Shown here in pieces: positions 1,516 through 12,145 of a DNA stretch of 33,999 nucleotides. A program made the translations under genes and the position numbers. Position 1 is the first letter of the stretch, and each line of letters opens with the position of its first letter. A model generated the notes under the pieces. That model was not told the DNA's origin and ran no database searches. It saw only the letters and a list, made by a program, of their open reading frames with translations. The stretch is from Candidatus Parvarchaeota archaeon (GTDB lineage: Archaea > Nanobdellota > Nanobdellia > JAFCGN01 > DAOVEB01), in the NCBI GenBank assembly GCA_030669205.1, contig DAOVEB010000003.1:1-33999 (forward strand). The letters run 5' to 3'.

Positions 1516-2195
1516 ATGGCATCCAGCTAGCTTGCAGATATGCGTACCAAACAACCAAACTTGGCTACTGTGGTCCAAAAGAGCTCTCTGACATGATTTA
1601 CAGCTGCGCGAGAGACGGAGCATGTGAGGAGATTAGGGATTCTCTGATGCACTATGAGGCACTGCCCATATACCTGAAACTCATAGCCAAGACCCATGAC
1701 CTTGACCCGCTTGATTTGGAGGTAGTCGAGGCATTCTGGCTTGGCAACAAACTTTCATCCTCAATCGGCACAGACGCCATAAGAACCGCTTTCCAGCCTC
1801 TAATGGAGATTGGTTACTACAAGAAGCGCCTGAAACCAAAGTTCGACTCCTTTCCCATGGACTGCCACCCAACCCATTCCTTCCATGTCCTGCTCATCGG
1901 CTCGATAACTGGAGTACTGGGCAAAGACGTTGAGAACATCAACAGCTGCCTGGTCAGAAAAGGGACTGTGAAAAACGGGGTGGTTGAGATGGAGCACCTC
2001 AGGAAGGTGGACAACAGGCTGGTTCTCGGGAAGAGGGATGCCCTAGACATGAAGATGGACTTTGTTGAAGCCTCAACCGGGGACACGATTTCGTTTCACT
2101 GGGGTTACGCAGCGCAGAAACTTGACAGGAACAAGTCAAATGACCATGCAGTCGACCTAGAACATCACCTGGGGATGAGGAACCGTCTTATTTGA
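1512..2195 (+). CDS. Conserved hypothetical, DUF6390-like, linked to hydrogenase maturation genes
   Basis: A soluble protein of about 227 residues, starting at a TTG that overlaps the previous stop (TTGA) with a ggggtgg ribosome-binding site just upstream; the frame is open further 5' but inside the transporter gene. Visible landmarks are LGYCGPKE near residue 20, PTHSFHVLL around 120-130 and ISFHWGYAAQKLD near the C-terminus. These resemble, from memory, the DUF6390 family reported near [NiFe]-hydrogenase loci; that match is a recollection, not a search. Position beside hypC and the protease supports a hydrogenase-related accessory role. Its 3' end overlaps the convergent rpo3 gene by 8 nt. 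Confidence 0.6.
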   Translation: MNGIQLACRYAYQTTKLGYCGPKELSDMIYSCARDGACEEIRDSLMHYEALPIYLKLIAKTHDLDPLDLEVVEAFWLGNKLSSSIGTDAIRTAFQPLMEIGYYKKRLKPKFDSFPMDCHPTHSFHVLLIGSITGVLGKDVENINSCLVRKGTVKNGVVEMEHLRKVDNRLVLGKRDALDMKMDFVEASTGDTISFHWGYAAQKLDRNKSNDHAVDLEHHLGMRNRLI

Positions 2196-2973
2196 TGGAC
2201 TTCTTGAATTCATCTAATTTGTCCTTTAGTATGTCGAGTCCAACCTTCATTATTTCTGCTGGCTTCAGCTGGCCAAAGCTGTCGATGTGGAAGAGTATGT
2301 TGTTTCTGTCGGCTTCTACAGTTATCCCACCGGTTTTGCAGACATCAACGCAGGCCTCACACAGGGTGCAATCCATTACATTGTTCGGTTTGACAACCAG
2401 TTTGCCTTTTTTTATTGTAAGGACGTCAACCGGACAAGCTTCCGCACACTCTGTACAGTCGCTGCAGAGTTTTTGGTTTATGGCTATTATCGGCATGAAT
2501 CTGTGATGTGCAAAGCACGGTGACCACTTCGCGTGGTCCCTGCCCCTGCCCAGTATGGCAGTGGCGGTGAACTCCAGTTCTTGGCCTTTCCTGAGCTTTG
2601 TAATTGGTAAGGGATATACTGGAACAACTGCCCTGTCATTTGACTTCATCTCTGTTGCGAGCACAATCTTTGGCCCCTTTGCCTTCAGTGTAAGTGTCAC
2701 CTGACACCTTCTACAACCCTTGCCTTTGCATTTGCACTCGTCTCTGAAGTTGTAGGACTTCAGGTCCGTTTTCAGCGGCACGAGACCAAGCCTGTGTGCA
2801 ACCATCTCGTCGTACATGGCTGAGGAGTTCTTCACAAACTCGACATCCTCTATGGCCATTGTTGGAACGTCTGATATGCAAACCCTCCGAAGCGAGTTTA
2901 TAAGTCCGATTGGCTCACCAGTTATCTGGTAAACGGTTTCGTCCTTGTTCTTTGAAACCAGTTTTTTAATCAA
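2188..2973 (-). CDS. rpo3: RNA polymerase subunit Rpo3 (RpoD) with two 4Fe-4S motifs
   Basis: The 261-residue protein has the alpha-like dimerisation domain ([20 protein letters not shown], residues 23-42) that pairs with Rpo11 in the polymerase assembly platform. A cysteine-rich patch follows (C80, C82, C87, C90). Residues 165-215 form an inserted ferredoxin-like domain with two complete CxxCxxCxxxC sets: C170/173/176/180, followed by Pro, and C202/205/208/212. Archaeal Rpo3 proteins differ in whether they keep zero, one or two clusters; this one appears competent for two. It is last in the S13-S4-S11-Rpo3 operon and its start overlaps the rps11 stop. Confidence 0.95.
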
Positions 2974-6082: not shown

Positions 6083-6535
6083 TTATGATTCGTCGGTTTT
6101 TATGGTGATGACATTGATGCCAGCCTGTTTGAGCAACTCGATGCCGTCTGTTGTGGAGTATGTTCCGGACATCACCACTTTCTTTACCCCTGAATTGATT
6201 ATCAGCTTGGAACATATCTGGCAGGGATAGCTGTTGGTGTAGAGCGTCGCCCCCTGGATGTTGCCGAATTCGAGCGCGCGCAGTATCGCGTTCTGCTCAG
6301 CGTGCACGGCCCTGCAGATTTCATGCCGTGTGCCGCTCTTTATCCTAAGCTCGTCGCGCAGGCACCCGATTTCGGTGCAGTGCTCCATGCCCGAAGGCGC
6401 GCCGTTGTAGCCCGTGCCGCGTATCTGGTTGTTCAGGGTCACGATTGCACCATACTGGTGACGCTTGCACGTTGAGCGCAGCTTGACTACCTCAACCATA
6501 CGCGCGAAGTATTCGTCCCATCCTATGCGGCTCAT
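6083..6535 (-). CDS. dCMP/cytidine deaminase family protein (ComEB-like)
   Basis: A 150-residue zinc deaminase. The HAE motif (H78-A-E80, in HAEQNAILRA) supplies the zinc ligand and proton-shuttling Glu, and PCQIC (C105, C108) completes the site. The extra HCTEIGC segment (residues 52-58) and the H71/C74 region before HAE are typical of deoxycytidylate deaminases, which bind a second zinc. The predicted reaction is dCMP to dUMP, feeding dTMP synthesis. The ATG overlaps the stop of the upstream Trm112-like gene (ATGA); a longer frame to 6595 exists but lies within that gene. Confidence 0.85.
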   Translation of the reverse strand: MSRIGWDEYFARMVEVVKLRSTCKRHQYGAIVTLNNQIRGTGYNGAPSGMEHCTEIGCLRDELRIKSGTRHEICRAVHAEQNAILRALEFGNIQGATLYTNSYPCQICSKLIINSGVKKVVMSGTYSTTDGIELLKQAGINVITIKTDES

Positions 6536-6744
6536 CTCAATTCCTTCGGCAGCATTATGGGTATTCCATCCTCTATTGGGTAGACTTCCTTGCACTTCTT
6601 GCAGGTGAGCGTACCGTCAATCTTTTTATCCTTCCCACGCAGGTCCTTCAGCACCAAGTCCCCCTTGCACTCAGGACAGCACAGAATCTCCATCAGCCTC
6701 GGGTCGACCAATGGTTCCTTTTTCCTTGTTGTCTTCTTTGCCAT
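6532..6744 (-). CDS. Trm112-family zinc-ribbon protein
   Basis: A 70-residue protein of the Trm112/YcaR family. It has a basic N-terminus, then LMEILCCPECKGDL (C23, C26), a short insert, and LTCKKC (C48, C51) forming a four-cysteine zinc ribbon, and ends with the family's YPIEDGIPIML motif. In archaea and eukaryotes Trm112 activates several RNA and protein methyltransferases. It lies 5 nt downstream of a methyltransferase gene and is coupled to the deaminase gene after it. A partnership with the adjacent methyltransferase is an inference. Confidence 0.85.
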   Translation of the reverse strand: MAKKTTRKKEPLVDPRLMEILCCPECKGDLVLKDLRGKDKKIDGTLTCKKCKEVYPIEDGIPIMLPKELR

Positions 6745-6749
6745 GCGGC

Positions 6750-7346
6750 TTAACTGTGTTTACTTCCTTTTATCTTTTTCGAGCAATACACCCAGAAACC
6801 ACCTGACCTGGCAACTACTTTACAGTTGCCGAATGCCTGCTTCATCCGCTCCATCAGCCTCTGCCCCGCTATCCTGTGGCGGGCGACCATGAAAAGCTTG
6901 CCATCCTGGTTGAGATGCTTAGGTGCCTGGTCCACAATCTGGAAACATACCTCCAGGCCTGCGCTGATTGGTGGATTCGAGGCGATCACGTCAAAGGAGC
7001 CGACCTTGCTGTAAAGGTCTGAGTTGGTCACCTTTGCAGTGACTCCTAGCTTCTTCGCATTCATGCGCGCCACCTTCAGAGCCCTCCTGTTCACGTCCGA
7101 CATTGTCACCTCTGCTCCAAGCTTTGCAGCAACCAGCCCGACAACCCCAATACCACACCCAAGGTCAAGGAATTTGCCACCAATGTCCATGTTTTTTATC
7201 AAAGCCAGGGTTCCCCTGTCGAGCTTCCTCCAAGAGAAGATTCCTGGCGCAGTATACAGTTCAAAGTCCATTCCGCGCAGATTGCCAACGCGGAGCAGGC
7301 CCAACCTGAACGGCGTTTCCTGTTTCTCAGAGAAGTAGTGGCTCAT
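6750..7346 (-). CDS. RsmC/MTS-like class I methyltransferase
   Basis: A 198-residue SAM-dependent methyltransferase. The N-terminus has the HYFSEKQ and ELYTAPGIFSWRKLD motifs (residues 3-44) of the RsmC/RlmG-type small domain. SAM motif I is FLDLGCGIGVVG (59-70), the acidic loop is SDVNRRAL, and the catalytic SNPPI is at residues 123-127, indicating methylation of an exocyclic amine, most likely of guanine in rRNA. The exact target cannot be read. The start overlaps the previous gene's stop (ATGA). Confidence 0.85.
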   Translation of the reverse strand: MSHYFSEKQETPFRLGLLRVGNLRGMDFELYTAPGIFSWRKLDRGTLALIKNMDIGGKFLDLGCGIGVVGLVAAKLGAEVTMSDVNRRALKVARMNAKKLGVTAKVTNSDLYSKVGSFDVIASNPPISAGLEVCFQIVDQAPKHLNQDGKLFMVARHRIAGQRLMERMKQAFGNCKVVARSGGFWVYCSKKIKGSKHS

Positions 7347-7999
7347 TTTTCTATAAAAGGTATTATCATAATCAGTGAGCCTATGAGGACGCCGACTGAA
7401 CCAAGTGCAGGCACCCCATAAAGCGTGTGCAGGAAGACATCTACTATCTCTGCTGAGAGCAGCATGACCAGAAGGCCAGCTATGAAGAGAACCATCTGCT
7501 TTTTGAGTTTGCCCGAAAGCTTTTTGAAAAGTGTGACAAGGTTGTACGTTGCATAGACCACTGGAACCGCACCCATCCCGCCGAAGAGTAGGATGAACCC
7601 CACGTCGTACCTGCTTGAAAAGCCGTCTGCTGTGTATACGACCTCAGGGGTGAACGCCAGGATGAGTGGTATTGTTATGATGGGGACCAGCGATATGGCT
7701 ATGCCAAGGTCGCTGAGCTTTCCATAGGTCAGATTCACCGAAAAAAGGGAGATGGAAACTGCGGCACCTATAACGCAGAGCAGCACAGCTACAAGCAAAA
7801 ATCTTGCAGTTACGTCCATCCCAATTGGTAAGACAGTCATTACCAGTTCAAGCAGGTTCCACAGGCTCGCGAACATTATGCCGACTGTGAAGAACTGCTT
7901 TGTCCTGTCCCTAGCCCTTGAAATCATCAGAAAGAAGAGGGACGCGCTTGCAAGGGTCGCGAGAAGCCTTGTATAGAAGACCAGTACCGTCTCAAACAC
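7343..7999 (-). CDS. Seven-helix membrane protein, sensor-like (7TM histidine-kinase N-terminal type)
   Basis: A 218-residue protein made of seven hydrophobic helices (roughly residues 4-27, 37-58, 64-90, 97-118, 131-156, 167-193 and 198-215) with almost no soluble part. Size and topology resemble the 7TM region found at the N-terminus of some archaeal histidine kinases, but no kinase domain follows, so this would be a stand-alone receptor or membrane anchor. The family assignment is by architecture only. The GTG start overlaps the stop of the upstream winged-helix gene, and it sits in the KaiC-like cluster, which suggests it senses or anchors for that module. Confidence 0.6.
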   Translation of the reverse strand: MFETVLVFYTRLLATLASASLFFLMISRARDRTKQFFTVGIMFASLWNLLELVMTVLPIGMDVTARFLLVAVLLCVIGAAVSISLFSVNLTYGKLSDLGIAISLVPIITIPLILAFTPEVVYTADGFSSRYDVGFILLFGGMGAVPVVYATYNLVTLFKKLSGKLKKQMVLFIAGLLVMLLSAEIVDVFLHTLYGVPALGSVGVLIGSLIMIIPFIEK

Positions 8000-8231
8000 C
8001 CGCCATAGCTATCACGGTTTTTCCACCCATATTTTGGGAGTTCAGTATCCCCAGGCGAACGAGGTCGAATATGCATCTTTCGACGTTCGTTTTTTTCAGG
8101 CCTAGACGCAACGAAATGCCGTTTACGTCGTCCATGACACCTGGATTTCTGCGGAAAAAGTGAAGTATCTCCATGTGGGTCAAGGTCACCTCTAATCCAG
8201 ATGACATTAGTTTTTTCACTGCGTCAACCAT
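7992..8231 (-). CDS. Small winged-helix protein (paralogue A of the KaiC cluster)
   Basis: A 79-residue predicted winged-helix domain: helix with LTHMEILHFFRRNPGVMDDV (residues 17-36), recognition helix around LGLKKTNVERCIFDLVRLGI, and a short wing (MGGKTVIAM). It aligns along its whole length with the domain encoded just upstream of the KaiC gene, which has LIHLELLYFFRNNPSIMDTV in the same place. There is no other domain. DNA binding or protein interaction are both possible. It is encoded 15 nt after the KaiC-like gene and overlaps the membrane protein gene. Confidence 0.65.
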   Translation of the reverse strand: MVDAVKKLMSSGLEVTLTHMEILHFFRRNPGVMDDVNGISLRLGLKKTNVERCIFDLVRLGILNSQNMGGKTVIAMAGV

Positions 8232-8246
8232 TTTGGATACTCGGAC

Positions 8247-9023
8247 TTACTTGTTGAAAAATTTGTCCACTTCCTTGCGGACGGACTTGAACGCAGAGCC
8301 CCCCATAATGTTTTCATAGTCCTTGAATGGCAGTTCAACCTCCATACCCTTTGAAGTCACCTGTAACTCCCTTATCGACTTGTCATGGTTGCTACCCCTC
8401 AGTTTTATTATTGTAATTGACTTCTTGAGCTCTGACCCTATCTCAACATACCTCAGGAGTATTATTGAATCGACAAGGAAACCAAGTCCAAAGTTGGAGA
8501 TGGACAGTTCGCCACCTCTGAGTTCTGGCAGTTCGTGGGTGAAAAGCGCTGTTATTCCCTTTGCCTTGAAGTAGTTGATTAAAGAGTAAATCTCCTTACG
8601 TAGGTTTATGGGCTCGTTTATCAGTGATTTGAAGAGCGTTATGCTGTCTATTAAAACCCTCTTCACTTCCATCTCTTTGATTACTTCGTCAAGTCTGTTC
8701 TTGTAGATTCTCATCTGTTGCAGAACAAAAGGTGATGTGGCCATGACCTTTACCCTGTTCTTCTCCTCCAGGCCGCGCAAGTCCCATCCGAACTCCGATG
8801 CATCTCTGTATATCTGGTCTGGCAGCTCTTCAAATGTGACTATAAGACCATTTTCATTGTACTTAGTGGCTCCGTTGTAGATGAACTGGAGACCTAGTGT
8901 GGTCTTGCCAGTACCAGGGCTGCCGGCTACCAAAGTCACTGTTCCACGTATGAGCCCGCCATTCAGCATCTTGTCGAGCCCGACAATGCCGGTCTTGGTC
9001 CTACTTCTTGTCTTTTTTGGCAA
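8247..9023 (-). CDS. KaiC-like (RecA-superfamily) single-domain ATPase
   Basis: The protein has TGIVGLDKMLNGGLIRGTVT, the usual KaiC-domain entry, then Walker A GSPGTGKTT (about residues 34-42), paired catalytic glutamates in TFEELP (about 65-66), and Walker B VLIDSIT (Asp about 126). Near the C-terminus IIKLRGSNHDKSIRE is the KaiC-type arginine-containing motif. With a single KaiC domain of about 258 residues it belongs to the archaeal KaiC-like group, proposed in the literature to act as signal-transduction hubs. I prefer the TTG at 9023, since GGAGG lies about 9 nt upstream; TTG at 9029 is an alternative. The start overlaps the upstream winged-helix gene. Confidence 0.88.
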   Translation of the reverse strand: MPKKTRSRTKTGIVGLDKMLNGGLIRGTVTLVAGSPGTGKTTLGLQFIYNGATKYNENGLIVTFEELPDQIYRDASEFGWDLRGLEEKNRVKVMATSPFVLQQMRIYKNRLDEVIKEMEVKRVLIDSITLFKSLINEPINLRKEIYSLINYFKAKGITALFTHELPELRGGELSISNFGLGFLVDSIILLRYVEIGSELKKSITIIKLRGSNHDKSIRELQVTSKGMEVELPFKDYENIMGGSAFKSVRKEVDKFFNK

Positions 9024-9345
9024 CCCCAATCCCCTCCGCCCTTTCCACTATCTCCTCTTTTGCAAGCGACAAAACCCTTCTCTTCTGCAGTTTACGGTCG
9101 ATTTCCCTGTTGTATATATATATTTTCATACCACTCACACTCTGTTCCTTCAGAACCTTCAGTTTGACAAAGTAGCCCATAGCATCGTCGATGTCGGCAG
9201 ATGACCTTCCAATCCTGGACGCTATGCCTCCAACTGTATCCATAATAGAAGGGTTGTTCCTGAAAAAGTACAGCAACTCCAGATGTATCAAGTCCCTTTT
9301 CATGCCTGTTTTTGTGACCATAACTAAAGTAGATACATTCTCCAT
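9001..9345 (-). CDS. Winged-helix protein (paralogue B of the KaiC cluster)
   Basis: Up to 114 residues: a winged-helix domain (LIHLELLYFFRNNPSIMDTV at about 20-39, then the RIGRSSADIDDAMGYFVKLK recognition region) followed by a charged C-terminal helix with a Lys-rich end. It is homologous to the smaller protein encoded after the KaiC gene. A TATA-like aaatataaata (about 9346-9356) lies directly at the annotated ATG, which would put transcription start near 9324 and favour the ATG at 9321. It is the first gene of the module and lies 13 nt after cbf5. Confidence 0.65.
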   Translation of the reverse strand: MENVSTLVMVTKTGMKRDLIHLELLYFFRNNPSIMDTVGGIASRIGRSSADIDDAMGYFVKLKVLKEQSVSGMKIYIYNREIDRKLQKRRVLSLAKEEIVERAEGIGVAKKDKK

Positions 9346-9358
9346 TATTTATATTTTT

Positions 9359-10324
9359 TCACCACATTCTTTGATATGTACCTGGTTTCATGATTACCCG
9401 CTCGAGCGTTGTTGCGACCCCCTGGTTTGAGGTGGAAATTGCTTCGGCCTCCATTGCGGCCCTCCCGACCGCTATTAATTCATTTGCAGGGGACATGATT
9501 GCGACAGTTGAGTTTTTGGAAATATCGTCGTGGAGCTTGGAGACCCCAGGCACCTTCAGCGTCGCACCATGACATATTGAATCAACAGTGGGTTCGGTCA
9601 CCCAGATATGTGGTAGATGGGCAACAGCAGCTTCGATGGGATGCACTACCGAACCCAAAACACCCCTTTTTCCTGTTTCTTTCCATCTGCTGTGAACTTC
9701 CCTGAGCTGTTGGAGCGTTACAATATCTGTCTTCTCGCTGAAGGGACCTGCCTTTGTTCTCCTCAACTCCTGCATGTGTGCACCCACACCGAGTTTTTTG
9801 CCTATGTCGTCGCAGAGCCTGCGTATGTACGTGCCTGCTTCGCAGCCAACGAAGAACAGGACATCCCTGCCGTCGACTTCCAGAGGTTTTATGTAGTATA
9901 CCTCACGCACCCTTTCCTGACGCTTCACATGGGAGCGAAGTGGAGGGAGCTGTAGGTTTTTGCCTACAAATGACCGCATGGCTGTAAGCAGCTTCCTTTC
10001 GTCGACATCCCTGTGCAGATGCATCAGGCACACGTACTCCTTGCCAGCTTTCAGCAGGAACCCGAGCACCTTTGTAGCCTCGCTCAACGCGACAGGCAGC
10101 ACACCGGTGACCTTTGGGTCGAGCGTTCCGCTGTGTCCCGCCTTTTTGACGCCCAGAATCTCCTTCACATAGTTGACAGTGTGCGTTGACGTCGGGCCGG
10201 ACGGCTTGTCCAGGTTGACAATTCCGTACTGGAGAAGCTCTTCACCGTCCCTGACGTGATAGGTGTAATCTATTTCCTTCACTTCGACTATACGCGGTCT
10301 GCGCCGCTCAAAAGGCAGCTTCAT
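9359..10324 (-). CDS. cbf5: Cbf5, H/ACA RNP pseudouridine synthase
   Basis: A 321-residue TruB-family enzyme. The N-terminal extension is followed by GIVNLDKPSGPTSTHTVNYV and the catalytic HSGTLDPKVTG loop (Asp69), then the conserved GTYIRRLCDDIG segment and a C-terminal PUA domain from about residue 240 (VKDS-equivalent region with ELIAVGRAAM). In archaea Cbf5 with Nop10, Gar1 and L7Ae uses H/ACA guide RNAs to make pseudouridines in rRNA; it can also modify tRNA position 55. A TATA-like taaaaatc box centred about 10352 sits 27 nt before the ATG, implying its own leaderless promoter. Confidence 0.95.
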   Translation of the reverse strand: MKLPFERRRPRIVEVKEIDYTYHVRDGEELLQYGIVNLDKPSGPTSTHTVNYVKEILGVKKAGHSGTLDPKVTGVLPVALSEATKVLGFLLKAGKEYVCLMHLHRDVDERKLLTAMRSFVGKNLQLPPLRSHVKRQERVREVYYIKPLEVDGRDVLFFVGCEAGTYIRRLCDDIGKKLGVGAHMQELRRTKAGPFSEKTDIVTLQQLREVHSRWKETGKRGVLGSVVHPIEAAVAHLPHIWVTEPTVDSICHGATLKVPGVSKLHDDISKNSTVAIMSPANELIAVGRAAMEAEAISTSNQGVATTLERVIMKPGTYQRMW

Positions 10325-10963: not shown

Positions 10964-11524
10964 CTATCTATCCTTTTTGTTTTCCGTCCAGTACTTCACT
11001 ATCCTCTCAACCAGCTCGCACTCCTGTTTTATTGTCAGGTATGAGGTGTCAATGATGAAGTTGTAGGGCCGCATATCTTCCAAGTAATCTATACCGTACA
11101 GCTTCTTGTATCTCTTCTTGTTTGACTCATCCCGTTCCTTATTGGTTCTCAGTGCCTCTTTGAACTGTTGTTTGTCGCGGCCACCGACTCTGGACGCCGC
11201 TATACGCGAGTCTACCTTGATGAAGAACGCGATGTCATAGTTGTCGACGAAGAAAGCAGAGATACGTCCTTGGGTGATGCAGTTTCCTTTCTTGGCCTCA
11301 GCTGCCATACGTCCATCTAACCTCTCGTCAAAACTGAGATCAGCTTCTGTGAGTTTATGCCAGCGTTGGAACTGTTTAGGCTCGTTGGAGTCATATCCAC
11401 TCTCGTCTGCCATTGTTCGGAAGATATCACCTGCTGATATAAACCGAAGGTTGAACTTCTCAGCTATATGCTTCCCTATTGTCGTCTTCCCAGAGCCACT
11501 CGGGCCGTCTATCACAACTATCAT
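10964..11524 (-). CDS. Cytidylate kinase paralogue (second copy)
   Basis: A 186-residue P-loop kinase: Walker A GPSGSGKTT (residues 7-15), the NMP-binding FISAGDIFRTMADESGY segment, KKGNCITQGRISAF, and a LID with RTNKERDESNKKRYKKLYGI. This matches archaeal CMP kinase, which phosphorylates CMP and dCMP, more than adenylate kinase. It is the downstream member of a tandem pair with the gene whose stop overlaps its ATG. In archaea a single cmk normally precedes eL14 and cbf5, as here. Divergence between copies (GRISAFFVDN against GWLAGHFVSK) suggests different substrate or partner use, which the sequence cannot settle. Confidence 0.78.
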   Translation of the reverse strand: MIVVIDGPSGSGKTTIGKHIAEKFNLRFISAGDIFRTMADESGYDSNEPKQFQRWHKLTEADLSFDERLDGRMAAEAKKGNCITQGRISAFFVDNYDIAFFIKVDSRIAASRVGGRDKQQFKEALRTNKERDESNKKRYKKLYGIDYLEDMRPYNFIIDTSYLTIKQECELVERIVKYWTENKKDR

Positions 11525-12063
11525 TGTATCACTTGGATTATGGTGTCCACTATTTTCTCAGTGTCTCTCTGCAAGAGGTTGGCAGTGTTTATGACAAAGT
11601 CGTAGCGAGAGACATCATTAGGGTTCACATTGTACTCACGCCTCACCCTCCGAAGAAAGGAACGCTCGCGCTCGATTGTGATGCGCAGGCTGTCTTTGAT
11701 TTTTTCGCGTTTTGCAATGCGCTCTGCAGCTATCTTAAGCGGAACGTTCAGAAATATCTTCACATCCGCCTTGCTTACAAAGTGGCCTGCAAGCCAGCCT
11801 TCAATGACACAGTTCCCTTTCTTTGCCTCAGCGACTATCTTCATGTCAACCTCTTTGTCTATCCGCCTGCTGAGTTCTGCATTCTTTTCAAGTTCCCTGT
11901 GAAAACGCAGGAACTCCTCACCTTTCGGCTCAAAGCCGTGCTCTTTTGCGATTTTGCGAAACATCTCACCTGCTGAAATGTATCTCAGTCTGTACTTTTC
12001 CGCGATGTGCTCTGCAAGCGAGGACTTTCCAGAACCAGGACGGCCTGAAATAATTATGAGCAT
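11521..12063 (-). CDS. cmk: Cytidylate kinase (first copy)
   Basis: A 180-residue P-loop kinase starting MLIIISGRPGSGKSSLAEHI (Walker A at residues 7-15), with YISAGEMFRKIAKEHGFEPK, KKGNCVIEGWLAG and a LID helix RITIERERSFLRRVRREYNV. The overall pattern is that of archaeal CMP kinase. The ATG at 12063 is preceded by a tttttattt box centred about 27 nt upstream, so the extra 24 residues of the open frame to 12135 are rejected. Its stop overlaps the start of the second copy in ATGA fashion. It is divergent from the Get3 gene. Confidence 0.83.
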   Translation of the reverse strand: MLIIISGRPGSGKSSLAEHIAEKYRLRYISAGEMFRKIAKEHGFEPKGEEFLRFHRELEKNAELSRRIDKEVDMKIVAEAKKGNCVIEGWLAGHFVSKADVKIFLNVPLKIAAERIAKREKIKDSLRITIERERSFLRRVRREYNVNPNDVSRYDFVINTANLLQRDTEKIVDTIIQVIQ

Positions 12064-12145
12064 ATAGTTTATAGCCACTACACAAATAAAAATCTTGGCA
12101 GATGATGAGAAAAGTATAATAAGATTGGGAGCCAATTAAAAACCG
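12064..12145. promoter_or_regulatory. Divergent promoters of cmk and the Get3/ArsA gene
   Basis: The minus-strand TATA-like tttttattt (12086-12094) is about 27 nt from the cmk ATG. The plus-strand agtataataag (about 12112-12122) is about 28 nt from the ATG at 12146. Both genes therefore appear to be transcribed from the first codon. Confidence 0.55.

Follow-up and report, generated by a model that had tools for sequence, protein, structure and literature searches.

A winged-helix, KaiC ATPase and membrane protein gene cassette in a Parvarchaeota genome with counterparts in distant archaea and Chloroflexota

Results

Four adjoining genes encode two winged-helix proteins, a KaiC ATPase and a 7TM protein

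The window, that is the whole stretch of 33,999 nucleotides analysed here from a Candidatus Parvarchaeota archaeon (contig DAOVEB010000003.1), carries on its minus strand four consecutive genes encoding a winged-helix protein (wHTH1), a single-domain KaiC-like ATPase, a second winged-helix protein (wHTH2) and a seven-helix membrane protein (7TM) (Table 1). A sequence-only reading of this DNA had described the same four genes as overlapping or nearly overlapping, and both the coordinates and the junctions bear this out: wHTH1 and KaiC overlap by 29 bases, KaiC and wHTH2 are separated by a 15-base gap, and wHTH2 and 7TM overlap by 8 bases. The 7TM frame in turn shares a 4-base ATGA overlap with the next gene, which encodes an RsmC-like methyltransferase that also matches the NCBIfam RsmC model (3.6e-30, under that model's cut-off) and is probably co-transcribed with the 7TM gene.

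Table 1. Features of the cassette and its flanks in the window
Feature	Coordinates	Strand	Remark
cbf5	9359-10324	minus	directly upstream of wHTH1
TATA-box-like AAATATAAAT	9347..9356	minus	between cbf5 stop and wHTH1
wHTH1, 114 aa	9001..9345	minus	perhaps 106 aa from internal ATG 9321
KaiC ATPase, single-domain, CII-like, 260 aa	8247..9029	minus	PF06745 4e-57
wHTH2, short winged-helix protein, 79 aa	7992..8231	minus	BLASTP to wHTH1 3e-16
7TM, seven-helix membrane protein, 218 aa, GTG start	7343..7999	minus	hydropathy and charge
RsmC-like small-domain methyltransferase	6750..7346	minus	PF05175 1.2e-42

The 10-mer AAATATAAAT occurs once only on the window's minus strand and is a possible promoter of the module's own; judging from its spacing, a leaderless start of wHTH1 at the internal ATG would fit. 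The initial reading had also set the module between cbf5 and rRNA/nucleotide genes, and cbf5 and the methyltransferase do flank it in the window, but these flanks are not shared by the other module copies described below. We therefore judged the methyltransferase to lie outside the module, which does not adjoin it elsewhere. Among the six genes scanned, no histidine kinase or receiver domain was found. An anti-phage defence role or a phage origin was considered and rejected, as the partners of KaiC had no specific PADLOC or PHROG match and KaiC itself had generic ATPase matches only.

Other genes of the window were also observed. After the 7TM gene, the methyltransferase is followed by a Trm112-like protein and then by a deoxycytidylate-deaminase-family protein, together forming a downstream operon (6083-7346, minus strand), and the adjoining of Trm112 and methyltransferase suggests an activator pair. 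Translations read by eye revealed an RNA polymerase subunit D-like protein including a ferredoxin-like stretch with cysteine motifs (2188-2973, minus strand), and two adjacent, similar-looking small nucleotide-kinase-like proteins with overlapping frames (10964-12135, minus strand), probably a tandem duplication.

The KaiC protein is a single-domain ATPase related to KaiC CII domains

The KaiC protein matches Pfam PF06745 with 193.7 bits against a cut-off of 26.6. It possesses a Walker A motif (GSPGTGKTT, residues 36-44), the catalytic glutamate motif (TFEE, residues 65-68) and a Walker B motif (VLIDS, residues 125-129), and the three are intact in all the KaiCs of its clade that we compared. 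The C-terminal tail motif of CII is also kept, since FKDYENIMGGS (residues 235-245) corresponds to FRNFERIISGS in the clock KaiC. On the contrary, the positions equivalent to the clock phosphosites Ser431/Thr432, read like the motifs from alignments with the sequences of PDB KaiC structures, residue comparison and trees, are occupied by G-F in the window KaiC and by E-F, A-F, G-F or P-F in the other clade members. Moreover, the protein consists of one domain where clock KaiC has two in tandem, and neither kaiA nor kaiB was found among the genes beside it.

Phylogenetic analysis placed the closest characterised relatives of the window KaiC among the KaiC CII domains. A 65-row tree united the HTH-associated KaiCs with a paralogue from the same genome and one solo Chloroflexota copy (support 92/79); the archaeal part of this group was recovered at 98/83, and the group as a whole adjoined the CII-type domains (91/91). 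A 34-row tree joined the window KaiC to its own-genome paralogue (100/98) and this pair to five archaeal KaiCs (89/80), leaving unresolved the junction of the archaeal KaiCs with the Chloroflexota members and the CII domains. By its sequence, the window KaiC is thus a CII-type ATPase predicted to be unable to use the clock phosphorylation switch.

The two winged-helix proteins are homologous

The proteins flanking KaiC had been read as related winged-helix proteins, and wHTH1 and wHTH2 proved indeed to be homologous. No significant curated family was found for wHTH1, while wHTH2 gave a weak MarR_2 match (6.8e-05, under the cut-off) and is without the long C-terminal helix. The AF2 model of wHTH1, with a core pLDDT of about 90, showed a winged helix extended by additional helices at both termini, and Foldseek returned as its nearest solved folds the archaeal wHTH regulators 3r0a, Sso10a-2 and AbfR2 (E 1.6e-3 to 5.5e-3, probability about 1.0). 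wHTH1 is also homologous to the wHTHs located 5' of KaiC in the loci L009, L058 and L087-L091. Most recognition helices of the family are neutral or acidic, and the best conserved motif of the family is the hydrophobic FFxxNP. We rejected the charge of this helix as proof against DNA binding, considering that taken alone it is a weak criterion. The fusion of a MerR domain to the wHTH in one Chloroflexota locus (L117, see below) supports DNA binding by the family, as far as domain composition can predict it.

The 7TM protein carries no output domain

The window 7TM has seven hydrophobic helices with a charge pattern indicating an N-out/C-in topology, in which cytoplasmic loops 1 and 5 are basic. 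As its stop codon lies a few residues past TM7, the protein has no output domain, confirming that the seven-helix protein is without a kinase output, as had been noted from the sequence. No Pfam, NCBIfam, PADLOC or PHROG match was found, MASE3 included, so that by sequence it is an orphan, and its structure model (pLDDT 51) was unusable and no fold search was made from it.

We compared the window 7TM with a profile of twelve KaiC-adjacent 7TMs, using as decoys non-family membrane proteins and 60 shuffles. The window 7TM scored highest, by a small margin (hhalign 24.8 against 22.6 for the best decoy; E 0.0064 for one comparison), and in this weak match the TM4-TM5 loop, TM5 and TM6 are paired in register. 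The topology read from the charges of the window 7TM agrees with that of the other KaiC-adjacent 7TMs. The window 7TM and the archaeal 7TMs of L094-L098 therefore have position and layout in common, while a common origin is not demonstrated. With the Chloroflexota TM pairs and the MASE3 of L117 no homology was found.

The cassette was not found among near relatives

We looked for the module among close relatives, as the first reading had proposed conservation of the neighbourhood as a check. Among 371 genomes of the same phylum, neither a convincing match to wHTH1 nor a KaiC of the cassette clade was found, so that near relatives taken alone would speak against a module, a verdict overturned by its recurrence in distant archaea and Chloroflexota. 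The order-level search around G638 covered one genome only, and in the phylum of a Micrarchaeota MAG, represented by 295 genomes, neither the module nor a clade KaiC was found.

The organism's own 0.91-Mb genome contains about a dozen KaiC-family genes, while neither further members of the wHTH1/wHTH2 family nor another homologue of the 7TM were found in it. The nearest KaiC to the window copy is the own-genome paralogue, which is 55% identical and located on contig C21; it is without a wHTH upstream, and the contig ends about 250 bases downstream. On the same contig, a KaiC C-terminal fragment at the edge (G000:C21:36-197) is convergent with the intact paralogue, and a KaiC copy on contig C12 (G000:C12:45-674) contains one in-frame TGA. 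Other pairings of KaiC-like and membrane proteins were observed in this genome. Contig C44 (L035:7629-10058) encodes a KaiC immediately preceded by a 199-aa 7TM, as well as a run of KaiC, PAS/GAF histidine kinase and response regulator, and on both C44 and C59 (L041:3313-4267) DUF7504 proteins, which are inactivated KaiC-like proteins, adjoin small proteins with 2-3 TMs.

The gene order recurs in distant archaea and Chloroflexota

Using KaiC alone as query, we searched 293 genomes in the phylum of 'Euryarchaeota archaeon L_MaxBin.117' and obtained five genomes at 43-48% identity, the closest outside archaeal KaiCs. All five loci encode a homologous wHTH immediately upstream of KaiC and a 7TM gene immediately downstream, and four of the loci carry tandem 7TM genes (L094 three, L095 four, L096 and L098 two each). 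One locus, L096, also has a PAS/GAF histidine kinase gene and a receiver gene, divergent and adjoining the module.

The order HTH-KaiC-membrane protein was also present in three Chloroflexota genomes, which, with the archaeal loci, extends it to two other phyla, the phylum of each outside locus being that of the MAG on which the search was centred. An Anaerolineae MAG (L009) has wHTH-KaiC-3TM-3TM followed by a GAF histidine kinase, L058 has wHTH-KaiC-TM, and in L117 a MerR+wHTH fusion precedes KaiC and a stand-alone MASE3. The recurrence of the order, together with the presence of this MASE3 in the membrane slot, indicates that a catalysis-free, receptor-like protein adjoining KaiC is a recurrent design. 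In L059 (Chloroflexota), wHTH-3TM-3TM lies at 1471-2505 without KaiC, and no KaiC of the cassette clade was found anywhere in that genome, while the clade KaiCs of L050, L121 and the own-genome C21 copy are without wHTH or TM neighbours. We did not count L017 as a cassette, as its KaiC-adjacent 7TM is an AI-2E family transporter. The search of plasmids gave only KaiCs about 30-36% identical to the window KaiC.

The wHTH led to L058 and L059, and KaiC to the five archaeal loci, L117 and L009. As the archaeal loci and L117 were chosen by KaiC similarity, the HTH and TM genes beside these KaiCs count as independent evidence, and the recurrence of the order in operons selected by KaiC similarity alone is more than chance. 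The gene cluster is therefore probably a real, transferable signalling cassette rather than a chance cluster, and its span from archaea to Chloroflexota together with its patchy distribution suggests horizontal transfer. The idea of a compact module thus holds for the order wHTH-KaiC-multi-TM, found in five archaeal and three Chloroflexota genomes, while the order with two wHTHs, in which wHTH2 occupies a slot between KaiC and 7TM, was seen in this window only.

Some of the archaeal loci have further genes in their surroundings. In L095 (2230-9561), the genes after wHTH-KaiC and four tandem 7TMs encode a fusion of KaiC with an Arf/Ras-like GTPase domain and a further KaiC/DUF7504 protein. In L094 (1615-10020), a type II/IV secretion ATPase and two T2SSF membrane proteins lie directly upstream of wHTH-KaiC and three 7TMs, a possible link of the cassette to archaeal pili. 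A further KaiC-membrane pairing was seen in L092 and L093 (312-3734), where one run encodes a short protein, a KaiC with two domains and a 500-aa protein of 11-12 TMs that has a weak ECF-transporter-like match.

Discussion

The arrangement is best explained, in our opinion, by a chain from a membrane sensor (7TM) through a KaiC ATPase switch to a wHTH output, which we consider rather probable. We infer that the 7TM would sense a stimulus at or in the membrane and, being without an enzymatic domain, would alter the state of the cytosolic KaiC by direct contact, probably via its basic cytoplasmic loops. KaiC is presumably a hexameric switch driven by ATP and closed to phosphorylation at the clock sites; it would relay this state to one or both winged-helix proteins, which would act as the DNA-binding output. 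In this chain the signal would run from membrane to DNA; it is less likely that KaiC is itself the signal output, as had been suggested, than that KaiC transduces the signal and the HTH protein forms the output. In favour of the chain, the membrane slot of L117 is taken by a recognised sensor domain and its HTH partner includes a recognised DNA-binding domain, the cassette KaiCs cluster near CII domains with their ATPase motifs intact, the wHTH1 model resembles archaeal regulators, and L096 has kinase and receiver genes alongside. Against it, no homology between the window 7TM and the other membrane partners could be demonstrated, the recognition helix is mostly neutral or acidic, and both clade KaiCs without partners (C21, L050, L121) and partners without KaiC (L059) exist.

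These same features can be read in other ways. As the main alternative, the wHTH might be an adaptor that ties a KaiC assembly to the membrane receptor without binding DNA, the output lying elsewhere, in other KaiCs, histidine kinases or GTPases. The charge of the recognition helix, the hydrophobic FFxxNP as best conserved motif, the persistence of the wHTH beside TM genes when KaiC is absent (L059), and the kinase and GTPase genes adjoining some modules are all consistent with such a role; considering that a MerR DNA-binding domain is fused to the wHTH in L117, that the fold neighbours of the wHTH are DNA-binding regulators and that helix charge is by itself a poor guide, we find it unlikely. 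It is also conceivable, if quite improbable, that wHTH and KaiC cooperate alone and that the window 7TM is unrelated and simply co-transcribed, as it belongs to no curated family, has no demonstrable homology to the other cassette membrane proteins and overlaps the downstream methyltransferase gene too. On the contrary, its slot, helix number and charge pattern match those of the 7TMs of five other operons, its profile score tops non-family membrane proteins and 60 shuffles, by the small margin reported above, and its frame overlaps that of wHTH2.

A clock-like device, in which, as in the cyanobacterial oscillator, the wHTHs would read cycles of KaiC autophosphorylation, might be suggested by the relationship to KaiC CII domains and the retained CII tail, but we hold it to be very improbable: the window KaiC has a single domain, the Ser431/Thr432 equivalents are replaced in every member compared, and no kaiA or kaiB lies beside the gene. 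Returning to the chain from receptor to wHTH, the recurrence of the cassette raises the more tentative idea, to which we give somewhat less than even credence, of a mobile design apart from one- and two-component systems, in which a stand-alone membrane receptor would act through a non-phosphorylating single-domain KaiC on a dedicated wHTH. The cassette would be common to Chloroflexota and unrelated archaea, and its receptor, be it a 7TM, a MASE3 or paired 3TM proteins, would be freely exchanged.

Multi-TM sensor domains are usually fused to a kinase or a cyclase. MASE3 (PF17159) and other such sensors resemble the membrane partner of the cassette, and the stand-alone MASE3 of L117 fills the same slot, whereas the window 7TM matches neither MASE3 nor another curated family. 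Two-component systems likewise join a membrane sensor to a DNA-binding regulator, while here a KaiC-family ATPase stands in the middle and the window operon is without histidine kinase or receiver. With the CII half of cyanobacterial KaiC (KaiABC clock), the cassette KaiC shares the RecA-fold ATPase, the catalytic glutamate and the C-terminal tail motif, and an output through a DNA-binding regulator is proposed for the cassette as it is known for the clock. It differs in having one domain instead of two, in the replacement of S431/T432, in its membrane partner and in having no kaiA/kaiB alongside.

KaiC-like ATPases have been proposed as archaeal signal-transduction hubs by Makarova, Galperin and Koonin (2017, mBio 8:e01959-17; through PMC5847659 and PMC13286277). 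As far as that proposal is conveyed by these sources, the hubs resemble the cassette in tying KaiC-family ATPases to input and output proteins and in having many paralogues per genome, and the cassette is set apart by its defined and recurrent HTH-KaiC-multi-TM order, its dedicated wHTH family and its CII-like KaiCs without phosphosites. A literature search on KaiC with seven-transmembrane or HTH-membrane operons, the scope of which did not include Makarova et al. 2017 itself, found nothing on the cassette arrangement. While inputs and outputs of the archaeal KaiC hubs are mostly unknown, the cassette, a short operon with counterparts in both domains, offers a candidate of each, an enzyme-less membrane receptor as input and a dedicated wHTH as output, and thereby makes the hub idea testable with three or four small proteins, for instance those of a Chloroflexota relative. 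To the known systems, as conveyed by the sources cited, the analysis adds a recurrent cassette with its own wHTH family, differing membrane partners in one slot and CII-type KaiCs without phosphosites, spanning archaea to Chloroflexota.
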